Source: Patescibacteria group bacterium
GTDB taxonomy: Bacteria > Patescibacteriota > Gracilibacteria > UBA1369
Direction of reading: 5' to 3'
NCBI GenBank assembly: GCA_963169655.1
Contig: CAUJCM010000004.1
Span: 186,001-250,000, forward strand
Length of the DNA: 64,000 nt
The notes beneath the pieces were generated by a model, which saw nothing but the letters and a program-made list of their open reading frames with translations, was not told the DNA's origin and ran no database searches. Both the position numbers and the translations under genes were made by a program. Shown piece after piece: positions 20,654 to 57,303 of this stretch; within the stretch, counting starts at the first letter, position 1; every line of letters begins with the position of its first letter.

Positions 20654-20728
20654 TGGTGCCGAGGGACAGAATCGAACTGTCGACGCAAGGATCTTCAGTC
20701 CTTCGCTCTACCACTGAGCTACCCCGGC
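20654..20728 (-). tRNA. tRNA-Phe (GAA)
   Basis: Read on the minus strand: acceptor GCCGGGG pairs with CCTCGGC (one G-U), D stem GCTC/GAGC, anticodon stem AAGGA/TCCTT with loop CTGAAGA, so the anticodon is GAA (Phe). The T arm is GACAG TTCGATT CTGTC. The discriminator is A at 20657 and CCA is encoded at 20654-20656. It is the only tRNA seen in the window. Confidence 0.95.
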
Positions 20729-20894: not shown

Positions 20895-20923
20895 TTGACA
20901 AACTATAATATTTGTTTTATTAT
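20895..20923 (+). promoter_or_regulatory. Strong promoter in the long intergenic region
   Basis: A consensus TTGACA, 17 bases and TATTAT; an overlapping TATAAT lies three bases further on. It opens a transcript that would carry a leader of about 350 bases before the cupredoxin-like gene at 21291. Confidence 0.6.
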
Positions 20924-20953
20924 AATATGATGATCGTTAAAATATAGTTTTAT

Positions 20954-21003
20954 TTAGGGAGAAGTATGTATTTGAAAATAATCAAATATATTCTTTTCCC
21001 TAA
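20954..21003 (+). promoter_or_regulatory. Long leader hairpin enclosing a Shine-Dalgarno and start codon
   Basis: The arms 20954-20974 and 20983-21003 pair over 21 positions with one mismatch and two G-U pairs, and the loop is AAAATAAT. The left arm starts TTAGGGAGAAG and the right arm ends CTTTTCCCTAA. The paired left arm includes AGGGAG and the ATG at 20966. Further short stems follow: 21057-21072 (GAATGA/TCATTC), 21075-21093 (TTAGAG/CTCTAA), and a nested GCTGT/ACAGC with GCTTA/TAAGC just before the gene. Confidence 0.55.
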
Positions 21004-21058
21004 GTTAAGTATTGTAAAGAATCTATTTTTGAAGTTTTTTAAAATTAAACTTTTTTGA
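20966..21058 (+). CDS. Putative 30-residue cationic leader peptide or micro-protein
   Basis: The ATG at 20966 is preceded by AGGGAG with a four-base spacer, the clearest Shine-Dalgarno I can see in this window. Thirty codons then run to TGA at 21056-21058. The peptide begins MYLKIIKYILFPKL. It has seven Lys, no acidic residues, and is otherwise hydrophobic. It sits about 35 bases after a strong promoter, with its start buried in a long hairpin. A leader peptide or a type I toxin-like peptide are both possible; a chance frame in AT-rich DNA cannot be excluded. Confidence 0.3.
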   Translation: MYLKIIKYILFPKLSIVKNLFLKFFKIKLF

Positions 21059-21290
21059 ATGATTTTTCATTCTATTAGAGCTGGTCACTCTAATACTTTA
21101 TAATATTTAATTTAGGGTTTTTTATTTAATTTTTGTCTTTTAGAGGTCTCAAAGCATTCTAAAGCTTTAAAATACTAGCAACTAATTTTATAATTTGTAA
21201 AGCTGTATTTGCTTATCCTCTTAAGCACAGCCTATAAAAATTAGTCTTTTTATGATATTATATGAAGATTTCTCAATAAAAAACAAAAAT

Positions 21291-22346
21291 ATGTTAGATC
21301 CAAATAATACAAATACTGAAAATACAGATAATTACTATGATTTAGATAAAGATCATGGAGTAGATTTTGATATCTCACCAGATCAATTAAATCTTTTTGA
21401 AGAAAATGAATCTGAAAAAATAGATTTTGATATTGATGATGCTACTTATATGGATATCACTCATAAAAATAACGCAGAGGTAAATAAAGTAGTAAGTCCA
21501 ATCGATGGAAATTTGGAAGAAGAAGATGATGATGAAGAAATTGATGAAGATGAAGTGACTCCAAGTACAAAATTAAAAATTATTGCTACTTTAATTATTG
21601 TTGGTTTAGCAGGATATGCAGCTTATTGGGTTCAAGAGCCAGTACAAATTAAAGCTGATGTTTTAGGTTCAGATATTGAATCTAAAACTAATAGCGAAGA
21701 AAATTTAGCAAGTAACACATTGTTAGGTGTGAATGATAAAGAAAGTACAAAGTTAGCAGACTCTTCTCTTCAAAACAGTATTAGTGTGGATATGAGTGCA
21801 TTTGGATTTGAACCTGCAACTTTAAATATCGCTCCTGGAACTACAGTAGTATGGACAAACACATCTTCAGAAGATCAAACTATTGTTGGTTCTTCAGATA
21901 ATGGAGAAAGCTTTGTAAGTCCTGTATTAAGCAGTGGTGATTCTTTCAATTATACTTTTGAAAATAGTGATAATTTCGAATATTATTCGACTTTTAATCC
22001 TACAAAAAAAGCAAATATAATTGTTAAAAACAGTGCTGATAATTCATTTATGCAAGATGATTTAGCAGCATTTCCAGATGCTTTTGAATTTGTAGATGAT
22101 GAAAGTTCTCCTTTTGAAGAAAATTTAAAACCATCAGCAGAAGTAAATCCTGTGTTAATAAATGATAATGAATTAAAAACTAATAATTTAATAAATGAAG
22201 ATAGTGAAGAATTAAGGCCTGTAGCAGATGAAAATACTCCTAATAATCTTGCAAAAACTGGACCTGCTGAAACTTTATATGCATTTATTTTATTTGTATC
22301 ACTTTGGATTAATAGAAAGAAATTAACTAAAGTATTTAATAAATAA
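21291..22346 (+). CDS. Membrane-anchored cupredoxin-like protein with LAKTG sorting signal
   Basis: The start at 21291 is preferred because its A-rich leader matches neighbouring genes; an in-frame ATG at 21252 would add 13 residues. The N-terminal 90 residues are very acidic (LEEEDDDEEIDEDE). A transmembrane helix follows at about 94-112 (IIATLIIVGLAGYAAYW). A cupredoxin-fold domain lies at about 165-245 (FGFEPATLNIAPGTTVVWTN). The usual copper ligands are absent: Gln stands where the first His is expected (TSSEDQTIV), and YYSTFNP replaces the Cys/His loop. The C-terminus is LAKTGPAETLYAFILFVSLW plus a basic tail, an LPXTG-like sortase signal. The sortase at 29060 is the likely partner. Confidence 0.7.
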   Translation: MLDPNNTNTENTDNYYDLDKDHGVDFDISPDQLNLFEENESEKIDFDIDDATYMDITHKNNAEVNKVVSPIDGNLEEEDDDEEIDEDEVTPSTKLKIIATLIIVGLAGYAAYWVQEPVQIKADVLGSDIESKTNSEENLASNTLLGVNDKESTKLADSSLQNSISVDMSAFGFEPATLNIAPGTTVVWTNTSSEDQTIVGSSDNGESFVSPVLSSGDSFNYTFENSDNFEYYSTFNPTKKANIIVKNSADNSFMQDDLAAFPDAFEFVDDESSPFEENLKPSAEVNPVLINDNELKTNNLINEDSEELRPVADENTPNNLAKTGPAETLYAFILFVSLWINRKKLTKVFNK

Positions 22347-22469: not shown

Positions 22470-23330
22470 ATGGAATATTTAGGTAGTTTAATAGCAAAAT
22501 TTATTTTTAATTTGAGTGAATTAACTAGTGATTTTTGGGTAAATTTGAAATACACAGATATTAGTGCCTGGCAAATAATTTTAGATATTTTAATAGTAAC
22601 AGTAATCTTCTATTATTTATTAAAAATGCTAAAAGGATCACGAGCTAGTAATGTAGTGTTAGGACTAGTGATAATTGGAATTGTCTATTTGGTAAGTAAT
22701 TATTTAAAGCTATTAACTGTTTCTTGGCTTCTTGAACACTTTTTCACAATTATATTAGTTGCAATCCCCATTCTTTTTCAACAAGAACTCAGAATGGCCT
22801 TAGAAAAAATTGGAAATACAAATTTTTTTATTCAAGACAAACATTTAGCTATAGACTCTCTAATTACAGCAATCATTGAAAGTTGTGATTTTCTAGTCAA
22901 AAGTAAAGAAGGAGCATTAATAGTAATTCAACATGGAATATCATTGAAAGAATATATAGATAATGGTATAAAATTGGACTCTTTGGTCAACAAAGAATTA
23001 CTAATATCAATTTTTCGTGAAAAAGGACCATTACATGATGGAGCGGTAATTATTGTTAATGGTAGAATTGCTTCAGCAGGCTCAGTTTTACCTACTAGTT
23101 TTGACAATAAGGATAAAAACCTTGGAACCAGACATAAAGCTGCAATTGGGCTTACTGATCACACAGATGCAAGTGTTATTGTAGTGTCAGAAGAAAGGGG
23201 TTATATCAGTTTTGCTAAAAATGGGAAATTAGAAAAAAATATTGATCTCTCAAGACTACAACAGCTACTTAAAATAGTCTTAACACCAAATGATATTAAG
23301 AAAAAAGCAAAAAAATTAATAAGAAGCTAA
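22470..23330 (+). CDS. cdaA: Diadenylate cyclase CdaA (c-di-AMP synthase)
   Basis: It makes c-di-AMP from two ATP at the membrane. The 286 residues start with a helical membrane region (about 35-105), followed by the DisA_N catalytic domain. Motifs are LHDGAVIIVNGRIASAGSVL (DGA near residue 190) and GTRHKAAIGLTDHTDASVIV, where the usual R-H-R reads R-H-K. SEERGYISFA closes the domain. Length and topology match firmicute CdaA. The next gene, cdaR, starts right after its stop, the classic pairing. Confidence 0.92.
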   Translation: MEYLGSLIAKFIFNLSELTSDFWVNLKYTDISAWQIILDILIVTVIFYYLLKMLKGSRASNVVLGLVIIGIVYLVSNYLKLLTVSWLLEHFFTIILVAIPILFQQELRMALEKIGNTNFFIQDKHLAIDSLITAIIESCDFLVKSKEGALIVIQHGISLKEYIDNGIKLDSLVNKELLISIFREKGPLHDGAVIIVNGRIASAGSVLPTSFDNKDKNLGTRHKAAIGLTDHTDASVIVVSEERGYISFAKNGKLEKNIDLSRLQQLLKIVLTPNDIKKKAKKLIRS

Positions 23331-24305
23331 ATGAATATATATAAATACTTAAATATTAAGGTTTTAGCATTTTTGTCTGCAATTATTTTGTGGTTTTTTG
23401 TTGTAGGAGTTGAAAATTATGTATTTGTTTTTCCTCAGTCACTCGAAATAAAAGTTTTAAACCTGACTCCCGGTTTAATTGTTGCCCAAAAATTGCCTAC
23501 AGTGAAAGTAAATTATAAATTACTAGAAAAAAACCTTAATACACCAAATATTAGTGATTTTGATTTAAGCATTAATACTTTAGGTTTAAGTGAAGGCAAT
23601 TATCAACTACCAGTGTATTATTCAATCAAGAACCCAAAAATTAATATAGTTTCTATTGAGCCTGAAACAGTAACTATAGAACTAGTTAAACTAGCAAGTA
23701 AAGAGGTAGAAATTAAATCCAAGGTACAGGGTAAACCAATGCTAGGCTTTGAGGTACAGAAAGTTAGCTTGAGACAAAACAATGTTAAAATTACTGGCTT
23801 GCAAAGTAATATCGATAAAATCAATAGTCTAAATATTGATATTAATTTAGAAGGACAAGAAAAGAATGATTTTAGCAAAATAATTAATTTAAAAATTCCT
23901 GAAAATATTAATTTAAAGACAGAAGATATTACATTTGAACCAAATACGGTACAAGTTGATGTAAAAATAAATAAAATTGAGGAAAAAAATAACAATCAAA
24001 ATACTAATGATGATAATGTTATTCCTGATAATAATAACAAAAAAACTGTAATGGTTGATGTAGTAGCTGAAGATAAAATTAAAAGTGCAGTTAGAGAATT
24101 TGTACCTAATAATATTTTATTAACTATTGAAGGAAATGAGGAAGATTTGAAACAAATTAACGGACAAAGTTTCAAACTTAAAATTCATGAAAAAGATATT
24201 ATCAATGGGTTTTATGAAATAAAACTAAGTGATATAATTTCTCTTTTAGATTTAAAAATAAAAATGTTAGAAGTAAGTCCAAGTAAAATAGCAGTTAAAT
24301 TTTAA
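23331..24305 (+). CDS. cdaR: CdaR-like YbbR-domain protein
   Basis: The 324-residue protein has an N-terminal transmembrane helix (about 11-26, LAFLSAIILWFFVVGV) and then YbbR-type beta repeats (about 30-110, 115-205 and, after an Asn-rich linker, 235-320). It abuts cdaA with no gap. In other bacteria CdaR binds and tunes CdaA from outside the membrane and links c-di-AMP to the cell wall. The usual partner glmM is not present here. Confidence 0.85.
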   Translation: MNIYKYLNIKVLAFLSAIILWFFVVGVENYVFVFPQSLEIKVLNLTPGLIVAQKLPTVKVNYKLLEKNLNTPNISDFDLSINTLGLSEGNYQLPVYYSIKNPKINIVSIEPETVTIELVKLASKEVEIKSKVQGKPMLGFEVQKVSLRQNNVKITGLQSNIDKINSLNIDINLEGQEKNDFSKIINLKIPENINLKTEDITFEPNTVQVDVKINKIEEKNNNQNTNDDNVIPDNNNKKTVMVDVVAEDKIKSAVREFVPNNILLTIEGNEEDLKQINGQSFKLKIHEKDIINGFYEIKLSDIISLLDLKIKMLEVSPSKIAVKF

Positions 24306-24315
24306 ATTAATTTTT

Positions 24316-25404
24316 ATGAAAATAGGTATTGTGGGTCTTCCAAATGTGGGTAAATCTACATTGTTTAATGCTTTAACTAAATCAAGTACTGCAATGGCAG
24401 CTAATTATCCTTTTTGTACTATTGATCCAAATGTAGGGATTGTGGAAGTTCCAGATAGTCGATTGAAAAAATTAGAAGAATTAGTTAAACCAGAAAAAGT
24501 GATTCCAGCAGTTGTTGAATTTGTAGATATTGCAGGTCTAGTTAAAGGGGCTTCAGAAGGTGAAGGACTGGGAAATCAGTTTTTATCTCATATTCGTGAA
24601 GTTGATGCGATTGGACAAGTTTTAAGAATTTTCCAAGATGAAAACGTAATACATGTGCACGGTGATGTTGATGCTAAAAGGGATTTAGAGATTATTGAAA
24701 CTGAATTGATTTTGGCTGATTTACAAACTATTCAAAAAAGACTAGCAAAAGCTAAAAATGATATGAAATCTGGAGATAAAAATAAAGTTGCCTATGCCAA
24801 TTTGATTGAATTAATTGAAAAAAACTTACAAGAAGGGAAAAAGGTTCGAGATATTGAATTAAGTGAAGATCAATTAGGGTTAATCTCAGATTTACACTTA
24901 TTAACTGCAAAACCATTTTTATATATTTTGAATGCAGGAGAAGAAAATTTAAGTAATATTGATGTTGAAAAAGTAACAAAGGATTTAGGCTTGAAAAGTA
25001 GTAATATGATAGTGCCTATTTGTGCAAAAATTGAAGAAGAGTTAATTACCTTTAATGATGAAGAAGCAAAAGACTTTTTAAAAGATTTAGGTATTGAAGA
25101 AAGTGGTTTAAATTGTCTAATAAGGTCAGCTTATGAAACTTTAGGTTTAATGACTTATTTTACTGCAGGAGTGAAAGAAGTGAGGGCTTGGACTATTCAC
25201 AAGGGTGATACTGCTCCAAAGGCTGCTGGAGTTATTCATACAGATTTTGAAAAGAACTTTATTCGAGCTGAAGTAATTAGCTATCAAGATTTTGTAGCAA
25301 GTGGATCAGAATTAGCAGCAAAGGAAAAAGGATTACTAAGACTAGAAGGAAAAGATTATATTGTAAAAGATGGAGATATTATGCACTTCAGGCATAGTAG
25401 CTAA
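24316..25404 (+). CDS. ychF: Ribosome-binding ATPase YchF (Obg family)
   Basis: The 362 residues match the family length. The G1 motif is [19 protein letters not shown], followed by [21 protein letters not shown]3 [20 protein letters not shown], and the C-terminal TGS domain with [20 protein letters not shown] and [12 protein letters not shown]. YchF prefers ATP and acts on ribosomes and stress responses. It ends exactly next to the convergent rel-like gene, with no base between the two stop codons. Confidence 0.95.
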
Positions 25405-27816
25405 TTATTCTAGCTTTTTCTTTCCTTTATAGTAGATATATTGCATGGTCAAATAACCAAAGATTAAAGCTATGGTACCAAGTACCCAAGCCCAATCAAA
25501 AGTTAATTCTATTAAAAAGATTTCTAAAAATATAGTCATCAAGGCAAAACTACTTAAAATATAAGCCATAGTCCAGAACTTCTTTGTATCCCTAAACTCT
25601 GGCAAACTTCTTTCTGTGAAATGATTTAAAAGTAGGATTAAAGCAAAAATAAATAATAAACCAGCAAATAATACAATATTCGCTAATAAATTCTTAAAAC
25701 TTTCAGTAAGTTGTTGCTGACTAGCAATGAGTTTTAAAGCTAAGGGATGATAAATCCAAATTAAGAATGTAATAAAACTACCAAGGAAAAAAATAATTCT
25801 TCTTGATCTAAACAATCTTTGAACTTCTTCCACTCCATCAATATTTTCTAAATCACGACAAAGTAGAGAAATATATTTATAGTGTGTTGCTTTCATTGAA
25901 GTCTTAAAAATAAGCTTTTTTGAAAAAAAACCAGTTTTAACTTCACTTGAAAGTAATTCTATATTGTCTTTATATTTTTGAATAATATTAAGGACATTAA
26001 TTGGATTAACTACTTGCTTACCAATCAGACGTAAATTGAATTTAGTAGGTTTAACTTCCTTTATAGAAATTGCTTCTTTTGGAGAATGGCCTTTATATTT
26101 TGATTTTATGCCACTTTGAGTAAAAGAATTAACAACCTCAAGAGGAGAAATTGATCCCTCTGCTACATTAACAAAAATATCTTCAGTGGTTTGTATATTT
26201 AATGATGGGTGTGCTTCTGAAAGTAATTGTATTCTCCATTTTGGTAAACTGTTGATAACTCCTATTCCAGCACGGTCAAACTCTTTCTGTAATATTTTTC
26301 TTCCCAATTGGACTTTTGCTGGATAACTTTCTTTTTTAAAATAATCTTTAATTCTCTTGATAGCTATGGTTGTTTTGGCATAGTTAAGCCATTCATAACT
26401 AGGAGCTTTAGGATAATCAGTAGTGATAATTTTAACTATATCCCCTTTCTTTAAAATATAATCTAAGGATGTATTATGGCCATTCACTATGGCACACATT
26501 GCTCTGTGACCTACTTCTGTATGAATATTATATGCAAAATCAATTGCTGTTGAGCCGATAGGTAATTCGAGGATTTTACCATGAGGTGTAAGAACATTAA
26601 TACGATCTTTTAATAAACTATTTTTTAACTCATCTAAATACTTTGATTCAAAACTTTTATCTTGTTGAAACTGTAAAACTTCTTCAACCCAGCTAGCTCT
26701 TGTAGCAGTAGAGATGGGTTTTTTACCTTTATTTTCAAAATAACTAGCTGCAATACCATATTGTGCTTCATAGTGCATTTCGGTAGTTCGAATACAAAAT
26801 TTAGTTGTAATACCTTTAATCCCAAAAACTGTAGTATGAATACTTCTATATCCATTGGCTTTGGGTAGAGAAATATAATCTTTAAACTTAGATGGTTTCA
26901 TTTTATACAAGCTATGTACAATACCTAAAGATTGATAACACTGTGAAATTTCAGAAACGATGATATTAACAAATAAAATAGTTTCTATGTCTTCAATTTT
27001 CTGATTTTCTCGTTTCATTCTTTTGTAGGTTCTATAAAGATTTTCTTGATAAGAATAAACGATAGCATCAATATCATAATCTTTTAGTGATTTTTCAGTA
27101 TCAGAAACCATTTTGCTTAAATATTTCGAATTTTCCTTTTTAATTTCTTGTACTTTGTTCTTTAGATTTTTATAATCGTCAGGATATAAATGTAAAAAAC
27201 AGAGATCTTCTAGCTCCATTTGTATTTCCCTAATGCCAAGTAAATTTGCAATTGGAGTAAAAATTTCTAAAGTTTCTCTAGCTTTCCTTATTTTTTTTTC
27301 TGTGACATCCATGTATTCAAGAGTTCTCATATTATGGAGCCTGTCAGCTAATTTTATTAACATTGTTCTTGGATCTTCTGCAACATGAACAAAAAGTTTT
27401 TTCATACTTTCTATGTCTCTTTGTTGCATATCATGACGATAGTGAACTTTAGACAGTTTGGTAATCCCTTCAACCATATAAGCTATTTGCTTACCAAATC
27501 TTGTTTCAATATTTTCAAGAGTATAGGAAGTATCTTCAGGAACATCGTGTAATAAGGCTGCAATTAAAGTTGGCTCATCAGCATGAATTTGAGTTAATAT
27601 TTTAACTGTTTCAAATGGATGAATGATATATGGAAGATTCTCCTGTTTTCTTGTTTGTCCATGATGAGCAATAGTGGCAAAAACAAAAGCATCTTTAAAT
27701 TTTTTTTCGTTGAAGTCAGGGTTATAATCTTTAATAGTTTTAATTAAAGCATCTAAATCTACATTGTATTTATTTTTTAAATCAATAATTATATTTTCAG
27801 CTTCAATTAACTTCAT
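25405..27816 (-). CDS. Rel/SpoT homologue with degenerate synthetase and C-terminal membrane domain
   Basis: The 803-residue protein keeps the long RSH order. The HD hydrolase domain (about 30-180) looks intact: HHGQTRKQ, YIIHPFETV, LLHDVPEDT, IKLADRLHNMRTL. The synthetase-like domain (about 225-355) keeps YRSIHTTVFG and QIRT-like CIRTTEMHYEAQYGIAA. However, the usual FD before the R-x-x-R stretch aligns with ET/IL in EDIETILFVNIIV, and the Glu of EIQIRT aligns with Lys (TKFCIRT). TGS (about 408-470) and an ACT-like region follow. After residue 670 come four hydrophobic helices, which long RSH enzymes normally lack. A membrane-bound (p)ppGpp hydrolase is inferred. Confidence 0.85.
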   Translation of the reverse strand: MKLIEAENIIIDLKNKYNVDLDALIKTIKDYNPDFNEKKFKDAFVFATIAHHGQTRKQENLPYIIHPFETVKILTQIHADEPTLIAALLHDVPEDTSYTLENIETRFGKQIAYMVEGITKLSKVHYRHDMQQRDIESMKKLFVHVAEDPRTMLIKLADRLHNMRTLEYMDVTEKKIRKARETLEIFTPIANLLGIREIQMELEDLCFLHLYPDDYKNLKNKVQEIKKENSKYLSKMVSDTEKSLKDYDIDAIVYSYQENLYRTYKRMKRENQKIEDIETILFVNIIVSEISQCYQSLGIVHSLYKMKPSKFKDYISLPKANGYRSIHTTVFGIKGITTKFCIRTTEMHYEAQYGIAASYFENKGKKPISTATRASWVEEVLQFQQDKSFESKYLDELKNSLLKDRINVLTPHGKILELPIGSTAIDFAYNIHTEVGHRAMCAIVNGHNTSLDYILKKGDIVKIITTDYPKAPSYEWLNYAKTTIAIKRIKDYFKKESYPAKVQLGRKILQKEFDRAGIGVINSLPKWRIQLLSEAHPSLNIQTTEDIFVNVAEGSISPLEVVNSFTQSGIKSKYKGHSPKEAISIKEVKPTKFNLRLIGKQVVNPINVLNIIQKYKDNIELLSSEVKTGFFSKKLIFKTSMKATHYKYISLLCRDLENIDGVEEVQRLFRSRRIIFFLGSFITFLIWIYHPLALKLIASQQQLTESFKNLLANIVLFAGLLFIFALILLLNHFTERSLPEFRDTKKFWTMAYILSSFALMTIFLEIFLIELTFDWAWVLGTIALIFGYLTMQYIYYKGKKKLE

Positions 27817-50774: not shown

Positions 50775-53700
50775 TTATTTACCTCCAAGTAAAGCAGGAT
50801 TTTCTTCGACTGCATCTTGGAAACGAGCAAGGAATCTTGCCATATCAGCTCTTGTTGCGTAATTTTGGATTGTTTTTGCATCAAACTCATTCTTTGAAAT
50901 GATATTAAATTCAATTCCAAAGGCAATAGCTCTATACATCCAAATTGTATCTGTATTATTTTTATAGGCTACTGCAAATGAAGGCATATCAATATCCTTA
51001 ACTTTTGGAGTATAACCAATTACAGAAGAAACTCCTTGGTCTAATAATGCAAATACTTCTATATATTTAATTCTATCTAGTGGAGCTAAAGTGACTTCAC
51101 TAGTATTAATATCTTTTCTTCCTCGAAGGATACTAGATGAGTAAACAGCTTTAAAGTTACTCAATTCTTCAGGGGATGCAATAGCAATTTCTTTAGCATC
51201 AGCAAGAGTTTTATACCAATCATTTGGTAAATTTTTAACCTTAATCTTAGAATTTAATTTTAATTTTTGAATAGTATCTGCAATTATTCTTTGAGTGAAT
51301 AAAGCTGTTGTATATCTAACCTGAGGAGTTTCTGGAGCTTGATCACTACGAGCTACTGTACTTCCGAGTGACTGTAAATCTTTACAATATGCTGAGTTTG
51401 GACCTTCTGCCAAATAGAATGTTTTATCTCCTACAATACAAGGTTGTGTTGATGGTTTTGTTTCCTTCAATTCAGGTTGAGTTGGTGTTTGATAGTAAGT
51501 GTAATAATTGTTTACCACAGTTGGGACTTCAATAGTTTTTTCAACTATCTTTTCAACTGGCACCTCTTTCACTACTACTACTTCTTCTTTATTTTGGGAG
51601 GTTGGAACTGGTTTAGGGGTTGGAGCTGGCGTTGGAGTTGGGGTTGATGTTGGAGTTGGGGTTGATGTTGGAGTCTCTACTTCATCAGCTAAATCTATGT
51701 TTTGAGACTGAGGGACTGCTTTAGGAATAATTTGAACTGTATATGATGAAATTGGAGAGTTTTCTACTTTTTTATCTTTACCAATTGCAAATAATTTAAC
51801 TGTATAAGTCGTATATGCTTTTAACCCTAAACTATCTGTTTTCTCAAAATTATTGTTAAATACCAATCTTGTAATATTTGAAGTAGCATCAATACTTGGT
51901 TCAAAAGATACAAAATCATTTAATCCTTTGCCAGTAAAACTGTTATTTGAAATAATATCTGAAGTTTGTGTCTTGAAACTATTACCTTCTATACTTAATC
52001 TAAACCCTCCTAAATTAGTAGGTAAATTTAATTTTGATCTTAAGTTTTGACAGATATTATCAACTATACCTAACTCTTCTTTTCCTTTAAATGCAGATAA
52101 CTGAGTTTTGAGTGTGGTAGGTGTAGGATTATTTAAATCATAAGTTAAAGATGAAGGATTAAATTTAATATTATCAACTTCAGTACATTTTGTAATAACT
52201 GGTTTAGAAGTACTGTCAGTTAATGTTATTGCATAATATGCATTTCCAATCTCTTGGCTATTCTCTGAGTTAATAAGCTTAATAGTATATTTTTTATTAA
52301 GATCTAATTTAAGTCTATCTTTAATTGACTGATTAATTGTAGTTGTAAATTTCAAACCTTGTTTATCTTCTGTTACTTTTAACAAACCTTCAAATCCTTC
52401 TTTTCCATCTATTAAATCTTTTAAATTAATAGATGGAAATTGATTTGACTCATCATATAATCCAACTAAAGTTTTTTGTGGACCTTCTTCTGAAATATTT
52501 AATACTTTCAAATCATCAGCACACATTCCATCAGGAATTCCATCATATTTTTGTTCTTTTTTATCGTACATTAATAAGGATGTAGTCTTAGAATCATTTT
52601 TAGCTACATCTAATGATAAAGAGTTAGGGTTAAATTCTACTTTACCAATGTCCTTACATAGAATTATGAGTTGCGATTGTCCTGGATCTTTTGCTTTAAA
52701 TTCTGCCTGGAAAACTAGAGCTGATTTTAGGTATCCTTTAGCATTTATTTGATATCCATCCTTGTACTCAGCTTTACTATAAGCAGATTGTGAAATTGTA
52801 ACTGGTAATTCATAATTAGACTTGAGTGCTCTATTTCCATTAATATTATTTGCTGATTTATCAGTATATTCAACTCCTTCTTCAAAATTATTTTCTGTTT
52901 TATAAGAAAAGTCTACATTAACTCCATTTACAGTGGCTTTTAGACTATCTACAAAATTAGCACAAATTGGATCATTATTTTTACTTTCTATAACTAGAGT
53001 ATTTTTGATTTCTCCATTTTCTACTACAACTTCTGCATCTTTAAATGTAGCTTTTACATCGTTTGTACAACTTTTAACTTCTTCATTTATTTTGAGTGTA
53101 TAACTGGCAACTGGTTTTTGAGAAACCTGATTATTTTCATCTACTACATATAATTCTACCGTATATTTTTTGTTAGCATCTAGCCATTTTAATAAACTGT
53201 CTAAATTATTAGTAAATTTAAATCTATTAATCTTATCGAGATTAGCTGTACTTGATGAAATTAAAATACTGTCATCATATAATCTAGTATTTTTATTTTC
53301 TGGTGTAATGAGTTGAGGTTTAGCAGCGTCTCTATTATTTTCATCTTTCACTGCTAATTTAAATCCAGTTATTTTATTGGGTAATCCAAAGTTCTGTTTT
53401 GAAGAATCACAAATTTGCTGACCACTAAATCCAATCTCTCCTGAATTAGTATAAATAGACAGGGAAGTATCTTTACTTTTAATACTATCATTTTTATCAA
53501 AAACCAGTTCACTTGAGTCAAATTTAATTTGATTAATATCTACACAGCTATCATCTTCAACTATAATTTTATAGGATGCAAAGATATAATCATAAGGGAT
53601 AGTTTGACTACTTGCTGTAATATTATTATTAATATCTTTTATTAGAGCTTTTAAGTCTACTTTATATTCTCCAGCTATGGCTGAAAGTGGAAAATCATTT

Positions 53701-54194
53701 TCAGTGGATAGAGCTTTAAGATTATGGTTAAATGAAATCGTTGAGCCTTTTTCTAACTTGAAAGTTAAAAATCCTTTAAACAATGATGTTGGAGGATTAT
53801 TATATAAATAATTATCTACTTGAGTTGGAGTATCTGTTGCACCTATTTTGCTAACTAAAACTTGAAAACCTAGAGGAACAATTAAAGTATCTTCTTGGTT
53901 AAAATAAATTTTTAATAAATCTTTTAAACAAGGGTTAGCTATACTAAAGCCATTTGTGCCTCCATCTTTTGTTTTTAAAATTAAATTATTTTTTAAAGAA
54001 TCATTTCTATTAGTATTATTAAATACTATACTTGGATTTTCAAAGTATATCTTTTCCATTCCAACACAATTAGACTGATTCGTAATATCTCCTTTAAATA
54101 ATCCTCCATTTTGATTGGAATAAACAGCGAGTCCTATGACTCCTACGACTAAAAATGCACCTAGTGCAATTAGCCATTTCTTTATATTTTTCAT
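50775..54194 (-). CDS. Large membrane-anchored surface protein, paralogue 1
   Basis: The 1139-residue protein starts MKNIKKWLIALGAFLVVGVI, a signal anchor. Five or so repeated beta-rich units follow (each beginning with Cys near KFDSSELVFD, EFNPNSLSLD or KFNPSSLTYD, near residues 205-900). A Pro/Thr linker (TPTSTPTPTPAPTPKPVPTS) and a coiled segment come next. The C-terminal 220 residues (from PCIVGDKTFYLAEGPNSAYC) are SLH-like: NLPNDWYKTLADAKEI, ILRGRKDINTSEVTLAPLDR, ATRADMARFLARFQDAVEEN. It shares the first 35 and last 220 residues with the gene at 54475, but not the middle. It may be an S-layer-like or anchoring protein; function unknown. Confidence 0.6.
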   Translation of the reverse strand: MKNIKKWLIALGAFLVVGVIGLAVYSNQNGGLFKGDITNQSNCVGMEKIYFENPSIVFNNTNRNDSLKNNLILKTKDGGTNGFSIANPCLKDLLKIYFNQEDTLIVPLGFQVLVSKIGATDTPTQVDNYLYNNPPTSLFKGFLTFKLEKGSTISFNHNLKALSTENDFPLSAIAGEYKVDLKALIKDINNNITASSQTIPYDYIFASYKIIVEDDSCVDINQIKFDSSELVFDKNDSIKSKDTSLSIYTNSGEIGFSGQQICDSSKQNFGLPNKITGFKLAVKDENNRDAAKPQLITPENKNTRLYDDSILISSSTANLDKINRFKFTNNLDSLLKWLDANKKYTVELYVVDENNQVSQKPVASYTLKINEEVKSCTNDVKATFKDAEVVVENGEIKNTLVIESKNNDPICANFVDSLKATVNGVNVDFSYKTENNFEEGVEYTDKSANNINGNRALKSNYELPVTISQSAYSKAEYKDGYQINAKGYLKSALVFQAEFKAKDPGQSQLIILCKDIGKVEFNPNSLSLDVAKNDSKTTSLLMYDKKEQKYDGIPDGMCADDLKVLNISEEGPQKTLVGLYDESNQFPSINLKDLIDGKEGFEGLLKVTEDKQGLKFTTTINQSIKDRLKLDLNKKYTIKLINSENSQEIGNAYYAITLTDSTSKPVITKCTEVDNIKFNPSSLTYDLNNPTPTTLKTQLSAFKGKEELGIVDNICQNLRSKLNLPTNLGGFRLSIEGNSFKTQTSDIISNNSFTGKGLNDFVSFEPSIDATSNITRLVFNNNFEKTDSLGLKAYTTYTVKLFAIGKDKKVENSPISSYTVQIIPKAVPQSQNIDLADEVETPTSTPTPTSTPTPTPAPTPKPVPTSQNKEEVVVVKEVPVEKIVEKTIEVPTVVNNYYTYYQTPTQPELKETKPSTQPCIVGDKTFYLAEGPNSAYCKDLQSLGSTVARSDQAPETPQVRYTTALFTQRIIADTIQKLKLNSKIKVKNLPNDWYKTLADAKEIAIASPEELSNFKAVYSSSILRGRKDINTSEVTLAPLDRIKYIEVFALLDQGVSSVIGYTPKVKDIDMPSFAVAYKNNTDTIWMYRAIAFGIEFNIISKNEFDAKTIQNYATRADMARFLARFQDAVEENPALLGGK

Positions 54195-54338
54195 TTTTAT
54201 TTTGTTATTAGAAATAAAATTATCATTATATTATACACTATTTTTAATTTTGGTCAAAGCATTGGTTTAAGAAAATTTTATTTTCATTTATAGTCTCTAA
54301 GTAATCCACCCCGTCAGCCCTGCAGGCTGCCACCCCTT
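54100..54338. repeat. Duplicated block, copy 1 (start codon region, promoter, part of palindromic element)
   Basis: This block aligns without gaps to about 57209-57447, at a constant offset of 3109, with only a few mismatches. It covers the first 30 codons, the promoter and the 5' half of the palindromic element. Confidence 0.8.
54230..54257 (-). promoter_or_regulatory. Consensus promoter of paralogue 1
   Basis: On the minus strand: TTGACC, a 16-base spacer and a perfect TATAAT. Confidence 0.7.
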
Positions 54339-54387
54339 GTCCACCCCGTCAAATTCTTCGAATTTGACACCCTCTAGAGGGGAATTT
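54306..54387. repeat. Interspersed palindromic element, copy C (one partial and one full unit)
   Basis: A first unit (CCACCCCGTC, CAGCCCTGCAGGCTG, CCACCCCT) stops without its second hairpin. It is followed at about 54341 by a complete second unit with a different first stem, TCAAATTCTTCGAATTTGA, and a CCCTCTAGAGGGG second stem. Confidence 0.7.
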
Positions 54388-54419
54388 TGTGCTCCGGAGA
54401 AATTATAAAGTTGCCCATC

Positions 54420-54452
54420 AAAAAATCCCGCTACTAGTTTAAGTAACGGGAT
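54420..54452 (-). terminator. Terminator of the 942-residue surface protein gene
   Basis: On the minus strand the stem ATCCCGTTACT / AGTAGCGGGAT is followed by a T-run. It is a near copy of the terminator at 50719. Confidence 0.75.
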
Positions 54453-54474
54453 TTTAACTTAAATATCTATTTTT

Positions 54475-57303
54475 TTATTTTCCTCCAAGTAATTTAGGAT
54501 TTTTTTCGATAGCATTTTGGAATCTAGCCAAGAATCTTGCCATATCTTCTCTTGTTGCAAATTCTTGAATTGTATTTGAATTGAATTCATTCTTTGTAAT
54601 AATGTTAAATTCAATTCCAAAGGCTATAGACCTGTACATCCAAGCTGTATCTGGATTATTTCTGTATGCTAATGCAAATGGAGGCATACTACTGTCACTT
54701 ACACTTGGTGTGTAGCCAATTACTGAAGTAATTGATTGATCAAGAAGGGCTAAGATTTCAATATATTTAATTCTACCTAATGGTGCTAAAGTGACTGCTC
54801 CAGTTTTAGGATCTTTTCTTCCTCTTAAAATTCCTGAAGCATAAACTGCTTTGAAATTAGCTATTTCCTCATCACTCGATGCTTCAATTTCTTTAGCATC
54901 TGTAAGTGATTTATACCAATCATTTGGTAAATTCCTTACCTTTATTCTTGTATTAAGTTTTAGTTTGGTAATTGTATCTGCCACAACTCTTTGAGCAAAT
55001 AGAGCTGTAGTATATCTTACTTGTGGGGTTTCAGGAGCTTGATCTACTCTGGCAATTTTTTCTCCTAAAGCTTGTAAATCTTTACAGTAAGATGAATCAG
55101 GACCTTCGGCTAAGTAGAATTCTTGATCACCTACTTTACAAGGAGTAATTGACACTTTTGTTACTACTGGGGTTGGAGTTGAAGTTGTGGTAGTGGTTGT
55201 GGTTGGTGTTGGAGTCGTAGTTGTTCCAGTGCCTTTATTGCCAGTATCGTTGTTGTTTGTGCCAGAACCTCCTTTGTTGCCAGTGTCATTATTGCCTAAA
55301 TCATCATCACTTTGAATTTGACTTGTCTTGAATGAGAAACTAGCTTCTGCTTTACCAAAGCTCAATGAATATGTTTTTCCTTTTTCGATTCCTTGTGGTA
55401 AATGAGCTGGGTCAAGAGCAAATTGGATAAATTCCTTCTTCATTGTAATACCTAAAAAATCATTATAATAAGTTTTTTCATTGAGTTCGTCATAAGGGAT
55501 TACTATTTTTGTATCAATAATTTTTGGAGATAAGGATGACTCAATCAAGGTTTTTAAATTGCTGTCATTTTTATTGTCTCCAAACCATTTAATTAAACTA
55601 GAATAACAAGCTCCATCTATACTCAATCCTACTGGATTATTATTTTTATCATAGAATTGATATGTGAAAGTAATTTTGTCAGTTGCATCTTTCTGAGAAG
55701 TTGGTGAAAATTTTGCAGAATCGAAAGCTATACATCCTGCTTTATCTTCAATATTATTGTCTTCTTGATTAAATTGATCTGCTTGCTCACTATTAGGATC
55801 TTCATCGTTACTATCAGGAATACTTTGAGCTTTATCGTCTTTTATTTTAAATAAATAAGCTAAATTTAATCTCTCATCATTTCCTTTTAATCCAATAATC
55901 TCCATTACATATAGAGTATTAGGATTCAATAATACATCTTCTGCTAATTTTAATTTATGAGTGGAGCTATCATAATATGTTTTAAAATTATTAACTAAAG
56001 CATAAGATCTACCGGATTTAGTGTTATCACTTGCTATGCTCTTTCTAGATATGAAACTATTTTGATTATATTTACTTGGATCTAAATTAAATGTATACAA
56101 AGTCTCTTTACCTTTTGTTTTGTTATATTCATCAAATAATTTTATATTAAATTTAAATTGAGTAATTGTATCTTCACATAAAGCTACTCCCTTCTCCTTA
56201 CTAACTACATTTAGAATATTTGTGATGGAATCTGATTGGCTACTTGAGTCATATTGCATAATCTTTGCATCTGGGGGGCTTTGTTTTTCTGTGAAAGAAT
56301 AGTTATTTAGAGTTGGATAAATCTCATCTGTACATTTTGTCTCTATAATTGGTTCTACTTTCTTTTCTTCATCCTGAACATCAAAGCGTAAATTCATTAA
56401 TATAGTTGGTGTACTATCTACTACATAACCAATACCTAAATCATAAATTTTATTTGTATCGTTTAAATTAATATTTAGATCTTTTAAATGAAAATAATTA
56501 ATAGTTTTTGTAGGATCAATTTCTATTAATCTCATTGATTTTAAAGAATCTAAAGGATTATTAGAATCTTCAGCAGCAAAAGCTTTTTCAAGATTCATAA
56601 AGTTAAATGAACTCTTGAATGTTCCTAAATTTTGTAATTGGTTTGATAATCCATTTTGTAGCATTGTGCCTCCTAATGGTACTGTTCCAGGAGTTAGAGC
56701 TTTTCCATTTTGTGTTTTTGTTGATCCTGAGCCTGTTTGTGGTGCAGTCATACCTTCAAGACCAGAGAAATTTGGTGCCAAGTCATTTGATGTTGAACTA
56801 CCTGCTATACCAAAATTAGTAGGGTTAACTTTTTCAAGTGTACCAGTTAGTGTATCATCTTCTTTAATAGAAAGAACAGGAGTTTTAACTATATCATTGC
56901 TGGGTAAAGTAACTATTGGTATCGTCTGGTTAATTGACAAACTACTTTTATCAAGTTCAAATTTAAATAATAAATCATTGGTATCTTTTTTATTAATAAT
57001 AGTAAATGCTGTATCCTTACCTGTGTTAATTTTAATTCTTCCATTATCAACATCATCTTTCCAGACTGATAATTTTGAATTACCTAACTCAGAGTTTTGT
57101 TCGCTTTTTATTTCATCAAAAACATAACTACTAAATGAAACTTTAGTGTTTTGGCTTTCAGAAAAAGGAATTTCTTGAGTAACTTCCTGTGTCGCCGCCC
57201 CCTTAAACAATCCTCCACTTTGATTGGAATAAACAGCGAGTCCTATGACTCCTACGACTAAAAATGCACCTAGTGCAATTAGCCATTTCTTTATATTTTT
57301 CAT
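54475..57303 (-). CDS. Large membrane-anchored surface protein, paralogue 2
   Basis: The 942-residue protein has the same N-terminal signal anchor as the gene at 50775 (one Asn/Ser difference in the first 35 residues). The middle (about 40-700) is largely different, with Cys-containing beta-rich units (KCTDEIYPTLNNYSF and AGCIAFDSAKFSPTSQKDAT). A Thr/Pro linker (TTTTPTPTTTTTTTSTPTPV) leads to the same SLH-like C-terminus (NLPNDWYKSLTDAKEI, ILRGRKDPKTGAVTLAPLGR, ATREDMARFLARFQNAIEKN). It is transcribed in the same direction as paralogue 1 with its own promoter and terminator. Function unknown. Confidence 0.6.
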   Translation of the reverse strand: MKNIKKWLIALGAFLVVGVIGLAVYSNQSGGLFKGAATQEVTQEIPFSESQNTKVSFSSYVFDEIKSEQNSELGNSKLSVWKDDVDNGRIKINTGKDTAFTIINKKDTNDLLFKFELDKSSLSINQTIPIVTLPSNDIVKTPVLSIKEDDTLTGTLEKVNPTNFGIAGSSTSNDLAPNFSGLEGMTAPQTGSGSTKTQNGKALTPGTVPLGGTMLQNGLSNQLQNLGTFKSSFNFMNLEKAFAAEDSNNPLDSLKSMRLIEIDPTKTINYFHLKDLNINLNDTNKIYDLGIGYVVDSTPTILMNLRFDVQDEEKKVEPIIETKCTDEIYPTLNNYSFTEKQSPPDAKIMQYDSSSQSDSITNILNVVSKEKGVALCEDTITQFKFNIKLFDEYNKTKGKETLYTFNLDPSKYNQNSFISRKSIASDNTKSGRSYALVNNFKTYYDSSTHKLKLAEDVLLNPNTLYVMEIIGLKGNDERLNLAYLFKIKDDKAQSIPDSNDEDPNSEQADQFNQEDNNIEDKAGCIAFDSAKFSPTSQKDATDKITFTYQFYDKNNNPVGLSIDGACYSSLIKWFGDNKNDSNLKTLIESSLSPKIIDTKIVIPYDELNEKTYYNDFLGITMKKEFIQFALDPAHLPQGIEKGKTYSLSFGKAEASFSFKTSQIQSDDDLGNNDTGNKGGSGTNNNDTGNKGTGTTTTPTPTTTTTTTSTPTPVVTKVSITPCKVGDQEFYLAEGPDSSYCKDLQALGEKIARVDQAPETPQVRYTTALFAQRVVADTITKLKLNTRIKVRNLPNDWYKSLTDAKEIEASSDEEIANFKAVYASGILRGRKDPKTGAVTLAPLGRIKYIEILALLDQSITSVIGYTPSVSDSSMPPFALAYRNNPDTAWMYRSIAFGIEFNIITKNEFNSNTIQEFATREDMARFLARFQNAIEKNPKLLGGK

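Follow-up and report, generated by a model that had tools for sequence, protein, structure and literature searches.

A probable family of free-standing, strand-exchanging structured RNAs in one family of Peregrinibacteria

Introduction

In the SRP RNA of E. coli, a transient 5' hairpin is resolved by strand exchange. The Peregrinibacteria RNA described here is similar in that it is free-standing and would exchange an early local hairpin for a long-range helix, but it differs in sequence and fold, it is built of modular repeats, and it has no Rfam SRP match. The OLE RNA, too, is a large structured bacterial RNA, but the present RNA has no Rfam match to it.

GOLLD and ROOL, large and ornate in structure, are RNAs found in phages and prophages, often near tRNAs (PMC12286853). 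The likeness lies in a size of hundreds of nucleotides, an elaborate fold, nearness to a tRNA and independence from the downstream gene. The Peregrinibacteria RNA differs in its position beside a single chromosomal tRNA-Phe gene instead of in phage tRNA islands, in its tandem homologous modules with a three-strand element (strands A, B and C), and in its confinement to one bacterial family. The yxjA purine riboswitch acts at the level of transcription by strand exchange (PMC9756952). The common feature is one strand that belongs to two exclusive helices, one of which ends in a U-run; the RNA differs from such strand-exchange riboswitches in that it is not a leader, most of its modules have no U-run after strand C, and it carries no ligand domain of a known class.

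It is probable that the RNA represents a free-standing structured noncoding RNA family of one Peregrinibacteria family, which folds by strand exchange and has one of its smallest copies in the window. The window is a stretch of 64,000 nucleotides, C4:186001-250000, in a genome (G000) of 1.02 Mb in six contigs.

The RNA of the window

About 560 gene-free bases of the window separate the gene of tRNA-Phe (GAA), which is at 20657-20728 on the minus strand, from a cupredoxin-like gene. Between them lies, on the plus strand, the promoter TTGACA-17-TATTAT (20895-20923), from which a transcript would start near 20930. A preliminary description of this locus had proposed a consensus promoter, and the match to the consensus is indeed 11 of 12. 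The promoter is the top scorer among 20 candidates in 3 kb, but 19.5 candidates are expected by chance, so its support comes from conservation: TTGACA is kept in position in 12 of the 13 family genomes, several of which then carry a conserved GATGATCATTGAAA-like start.

The promoter and a U-run at 21118-21123 suggest 20930 and 21123 as the ends of a putatively noncoding RNA of one module and about 190-200 nt (plus strand), presumably transcribed from this promoter; its architecture is kept in relatives. The predicted folding energy of the 198-nt RNA 20930-21127 is -52.6 kcal/mol, compared with -29.2 +/- 3.5 kcal/mol for dinucleotide shuffles (z = -6.67), and none of 200 such shuffles matches it. 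In the RNAfold prediction, the arms 20954-20975 and 20982-21003 form hairpin P1 (20954-21003) with 11 + 10 = 21 pairs. Its 5' arm contains AGGGAG (20956-20961) and an ATG (20966-20968), in agreement with the preliminary description, and includes the purine-rich strand A (TTTAGGGAGAAG, 20953-20964), which pairs with strand B and covaries with it across 21 modules. Strand B (CTTTTCCCTAAG) with its 3' extension occupies 20993-21019, and complementarity and covariation identify its core, CCCTAAG (20998-21004), as shared by A and C. Strand C (CTTTATAATATTTAATTTAGGG, 21096-21117) is the 3' arm of helix P2 and a 22-nt complement, G-U pairs allowed, of 20998-21019. It is adjoined by the U-run, a likely terminator, which has the same position in the other complete modules of this type and in module 1 of G005.

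The loop of P2 would hold three hairpins. Two small ones, 21031-21053 and 21057-21072, are predicted by RNAfold and are missing from relatives. The third, P4 (21073-21095), has a variable stem and a 7-nt loop, CTGGTCA (21081-21087); the loop, YTGGTCR, is kept in six genomes while the stems change, and a P4-like hairpin appeared in 10 of 20000 Markov sequences. Further downstream, RNAfold places a second hairpin followed by TCTTTTTA (21180-21249), a possible back-up terminator directly before the promoter of the cupredoxin-like gene. A comparable hairpin with a U-run is seen by eye at the matching place in G002 and G010.

The preliminary description took the AGGGAG for a ribosome site buried in the hairpin and considered a leader-peptide switch, a type I toxin-like peptide and a structured RNA. 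In the two peptide readings, the hairpin would hide the ribosome site of a 30-codon frame at 20966-21058 (plus strand), which would encode a leader peptide or a small toxin; the AGGGAG is four bases 5' of the ATG, inside the hairpin, and the frame is cationic and hydrophobic. The frame, however, is confined to the window and absent in G001 and G012, where the AGGGAG corresponds to strand A of the three-strand element and no ATG follows. Shine-Dalgarno pairing is also hardly used in the window genome: a Shine-Dalgarno-like tetramer precedes 3 of 38 window ORFs, which agrees with the earlier remark that the other genes lack the motif. The frame is judged not to be a gene, and we find a peptide product extremely improbable. 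The gene arrangement, which makes the RNA a transcription unit of its own, also speaks against the leader-peptide switch. The structured RNA is the one of the three options that conservation, covariation and family-wide occurrence uphold.

Distribution and homology

A direct nucleotide search with the 396 bases of the window locus gave only short A+T-rich chance matches in relatives, and homologs were therefore reached via the neighbouring protein and tRNA-Phe. The cupredoxin-like protein is matched in 12 of the 13 family genomes, the window genome included; a search of genome contigs with this protein as query gave no match. The pattern TTTTGTCGCAAGACAAAG is found in 46 contigs, of which three Peregrinibacteria/Patescibacteria records (L049, L074, L079) are the RNA and the remainder belong to other phyla.

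Each of the 12 further genomes in the GTDB family has a counterpart of the RNA, although that of G011 is much reduced. In 10 of the 13 genomes the RNA is divergent from tRNA-Phe. In G008 the two are 12 kb apart on the same contig, and in G004 and G006 there is no tRNA within the stretch examined around the RNA. The size of the RNA varies from about 0.1-0.2 kb in G011, G012 and the window, the copy of which is thus among the smallest, to about 1.1 kb in G010, and is 0.7-1.1 kb in most genomes. Each RNA comprises one to three modules, in tandem in most copies. The interval between tRNA-Phe and the cupredoxin-like gene in G002, G003 and G010 spans 960-1340 nt and is full of structured sequence, arranged as module 1, a unit of about 390 nt that occurs once or twice in tandem, and then a window-like module 2. 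The window genome, G001 and G012 have the window-type module alone, with no match to module 1. The copy of G011, about 110 nt, consists, tentatively, of a promoter, an A:B-like hairpin and a terminator, and may reduce the choice among strands A, B and C to its minimum. The RNAs of these four genomes occupy the same place beside tRNA-Phe.

The retention of an RNA of up to 1.1 kb by the whole family, the genomes of which are about 1.1 Mb, makes an important role likely. The size series, from about 0.1-0.2 kb (G011 and the window) to tandem forms of 1.1 kb, offers a way to tell the essential part from the additions.

Several details of individual copies are worth recording. The tandem duplicates of module 1 are 88% identical in G003 (L010), where the duplication is recent, and 69% identical in G010 (L012). 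The A:B-like hairpin of G011 (L019, about 540-690) overlaps an arm of a local terminator, GCCCG-CTCTC-CGGGC-T8. The 3' ends in G008 (L132), G007 (L097) and G006 (L146) carry a strong terminator hairpin, GGAYUG...CAGUCCUCRAG, with an inner GGUCA...UGACC; this hairpin is partly common to module 2 of G002, G003 and G010 and to G009.

Covariance models extended the comparison. Model R1, the module-1 core built on five copies from three genomes, recovered three genomes outside its training set: G008 (E 3.6e-11), G007 (1.1e-9) and G009 (2.4e-7). Model R3, built on eight module-1 copies, added G004, G005 and G006 (E 1e-15 to 1e-25). With strict filters, which may lose diverged copies, R3 matches 9 of the 353 genomes of the class, all of them within the family (9 of 13), and none of the 340 outside it. 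As R1, when filtered strictly, overlooked genuine members of the family, the negative result for the class is taken from R3 instead. In an even sample of 40 genomes, searched with laxer filters, those from other families of the order gave no model match. A weak R1 match in G144 (E 5e-4, L133) turned out to be a long inverted repeat, which R3 did not recover. The window copy lacks a module-1 domain, and it belonged to the set on which model R2 was built. It thus has no independent model match, and its homology rests on its place, its promoter, the three-strand element, the YUGGUCR hairpin and the U-run.

Rfam 15 has no match to the RNA, whether the window is searched at the gathering score, the surroundings of the RNA with E up to 5, or the 12 family loci with E up to 0.5. 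Membership in GOLLD, ROOL or OLE, whose models match neither the window nor the 12 family loci, was accordingly rejected, as were the riboswitch classes of Rfam. RNase P RNA and tmRNA lie elsewhere in the genome (C1:138867-139300 and C3:72265-72677, respectively). The 6S RNA model has no match in the window or around the RNA, and the fold is multi-branched and modular, not a long hairpin with a central bubble. The literature searched on noncoding RNA in Peregrinibacteria, CPR and Patescibacteria describes neither such an RNA nor any structured noncoding RNA family specific to Peregrinibacteria, although an earlier description in subscription journals is possible. Thus, every sampled member of one Peregrinibacteria family (13 genomes) appears to carry an undescribed structured RNA.

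Covariation of module 1

The preliminary description had proposed a covariation analysis with homologous regions. In 12 copies of module 1, aligned by fitting to the model, which favours structure (three of the included genomes were found by the model and not used in training), 87.8% of 509 cells are standard pairs. Two-sided changes occur at 38 of the 43 pairs, in 132 cells compared with 51 in shuffles, and none of 500 shuffles reaches the observed value in any of five covariation measures. When the register is slid as a control, pairing falls to 36-54%. U-G pairs are frequent in module 1, one of them being kept in 10 of 12 copies, which indicates that the constraint acts on the RNA of the given strand and not on the DNA. 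The strongest sequence motifs of the module are two hairpins, one capped by a GCAA tetraloop (GUCGCAAGAC) and one containing GGUGG...AGGCC; in module 2 the motif is YUGGUCR, a loop of 7 nt on a stem that varies. The base pairs covary more than chance and the relatedness of the copies would account for, which is a mark of a structured noncoding RNA.

A strand with two partners

In every module (n = 21), strand B is complementary both to the upstream strand A and to the downstream strand C, and the two helices are mutually exclusive. The core of B varies (CCCUAA, CCCUGG, CCCCGG, CCCUGA, UCCUAAG, CUCUGGA), and its two partner strands follow these changes. Over the 7-nt core in the 21 modules, 86% of the cells are paired in A:B and 95% in B:C, and the doubly changed cells number 24 for A:B and 25 for B:C. 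None of 2000 strand-swap controls reaches these percentages or these numbers of doubly changed cells, although the excess is somewhat inflated since the registers chosen for A and C were those that best matched the B of the same module. The outcome was similar with a 12-module set. A and C are near copies of each other, and B is specific to the A and C of its own module. The combination of the three strands with a U-run was found in none of 20000 Markov sequences of the composition of the window RNA, so chance does not explain it.

According to the energy predictions, the RNA can fold in two exclusive ways, with A:B or with B:C. The predicted energy of the C state minus that of the A state ranges from -7.0 to +3.4 kcal/mol, with a median of about 0 (14 modules). 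Double complementarity would, however, also be seen if a single one of the states occurred in the cell. Strand C is followed by a U-run in all five complete copies of the window-type module and in module 1 of G005. In these six modules the RNA may work, in part, like a strand-exchanging riboswitch, A:B being set against B:C with its U-run. In most modules (module 0, module 1), C is not followed by a U-run. The RNAs of G004, G006, G007 and G008 end in an A:B-type hairpin with a U-run, not in B:C, and termination by B:C is therefore not general. An advantage of the three-strand element is that it makes a folding pathway directly testable on an RNA of 200 nt.

An independent transcription unit

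The cupredoxin-like gene has a -10 region at about 21254-21260 in the window, which together with a short leader spans 21252-21290 (plus strand). In relatives, the ATG of this gene is directly preceded by the -10, a start that resembles GAAGATTT, and a short leader rich in A, and the same promoter is found in G004, G006, G007 and G009, where the RNA sits elsewhere. As the conserved -10 overlaps the ATG at 21252, the true start of the gene is probably 21291. A convergent SNase-fold gene (PF00565, Pfam) follows the RNA in G011 and G006, and G004, G005 and G007 show the same arrangement of a convergent nuclease gene as judged by sequence. The next gene is co-directional with the RNA in the window genome, G002, G003, G010 and G012. 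No long ORF was found to run through the large copies of the RNA. The independent promoter of the cupredoxin-like gene and the convergent SNase gene in five relatives support, at the level of gene arrangement, that the RNA is its own transcription unit. A cis-acting leader or riboswitch, which must share the transcript of the gene that it controls, was rejected on the same two grounds. The preliminary description was right in seeing more stems after the long hairpin, namely the three in the P2 loop and another at about 21180-21249, but their placement before the cupredoxin-like gene has to be revised in view of that gene's own -10 and probable start at 21291.

The cupredoxin-like protein (21252-22346) has a weak match to Cupredoxin_1/Copper-bind (E about 0.01, below the cut-off), an acidic N-terminal region and hydrophobic segments. 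Genes for CdaA (a c-di-AMP synthase), YbbR and the GTPase YchF lie at 22470-27816 of the window, with RelA/SpoT on the opposite strand. CdaA and RelA/SpoT place two second-messenger enzymes within about 5 kb.

The gene arrangement also bears on whether the RNA is a regulatory bistable switch, in which a ligand or protein would pick A:B or B:C and so decide between termination and read-through into cupredoxin-CdaA-YbbR. The balanced energies of the two states, the U-run that adjoins C in six modules, the five genomes with a co-directional next gene and the second messenger made by CdaA speak for such a switch. However, the SNase gene of five genomes is convergent to the RNA, most modules have no U-run after C, and the cupredoxin-like gene not only has its own conserved -10 but is separated from the RNA by the second hairpin and its U-run. 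A switch of this kind is thus quite unlikely.

Possible folding pathway and role

We infer the following order of folding, strand exchange and termination. The strong promoter of the RNA would drive transcription of one to three modules. The A:B hairpin would form first, once B has been made. Strand C would then nucleate on the 3' portion of B, which is not engaged in A:B, and oust A via branch migration, closing the module. In terminal window-type modules, closure by B:C would set the 3' end at the U-run; since C abuts the U-run there, closure and termination would coincide. The task of the RNA would then fall to the freed purine-rich strand A or to the multi-branch domain, closed by this step, in which the loops are conserved. 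The most likely role is structural or that of a scaffold, because the multi-branched modules, the GNRA loop and the fixed loops exceed the needs of a switch or an antisense RNA and because the downstream gene is not constant.

It is possible that A:B has no part in the finished RNA and only guides co-transcriptional folding, as a temporary helix that keeps B from mispairing with the A or C strands of other modules. The near identity of A and C, the specificity of B for the strands of its own module, and the presence of several modules with near-identical strands in one transcript fit such a function. RNAs with a single module, such as that of the window, nevertheless keep the device, although mispairing between modules cannot arise in them. 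We regard a mere folding guide as rather unlikely; it is a variant of the pathway set out above and not its opposite.

The RNA might instead act in trans, its strand B (CUCCCU-like) or A (GGGAGA-like), exposed in one of the two states, pairing with mRNAs or the 16S rRNA 3' end. In all modules B resembles an anti-Shine-Dalgarno and A a Shine-Dalgarno sequence, and it would depend on the state of the RNA whether A is exposed. On the other hand, a Shine-Dalgarno-like motif in only 3 of 38 genes argues that such pairing is not widely used, and A and B covary and drift between genomes (CCCUAA, CCCUGG, CCCCGG, UCCUAAG), a pattern more in keeping with internal pairing than with a fixed target outside the RNA. 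The large modules, moreover, hold far more structure than an antisense RNA requires. These points make a trans-acting RNA improbable.

A further speculation within the strand-exchange pathway is that a released strand A captures strand B of another molecule, whereby repeat units would join into RNA-only multimers. This is conceivable, if unlikely. If true, the conserved equality of A and C would serve intermolecular assembly, and the multimers would join GOLLD and ROOL as another way of building ornate RNA assemblies.

Another feature of the window

Two adjacent large ORFs, of 1139 and 942 amino acids, lie on the minus strand at 50775-57303. The sequences that precede their starts are nearly identical (TTTCTAATAACAAAATAAAA and TTTCTAATAACAGAATAAAA), which suggests that the pair arose by gene duplication.
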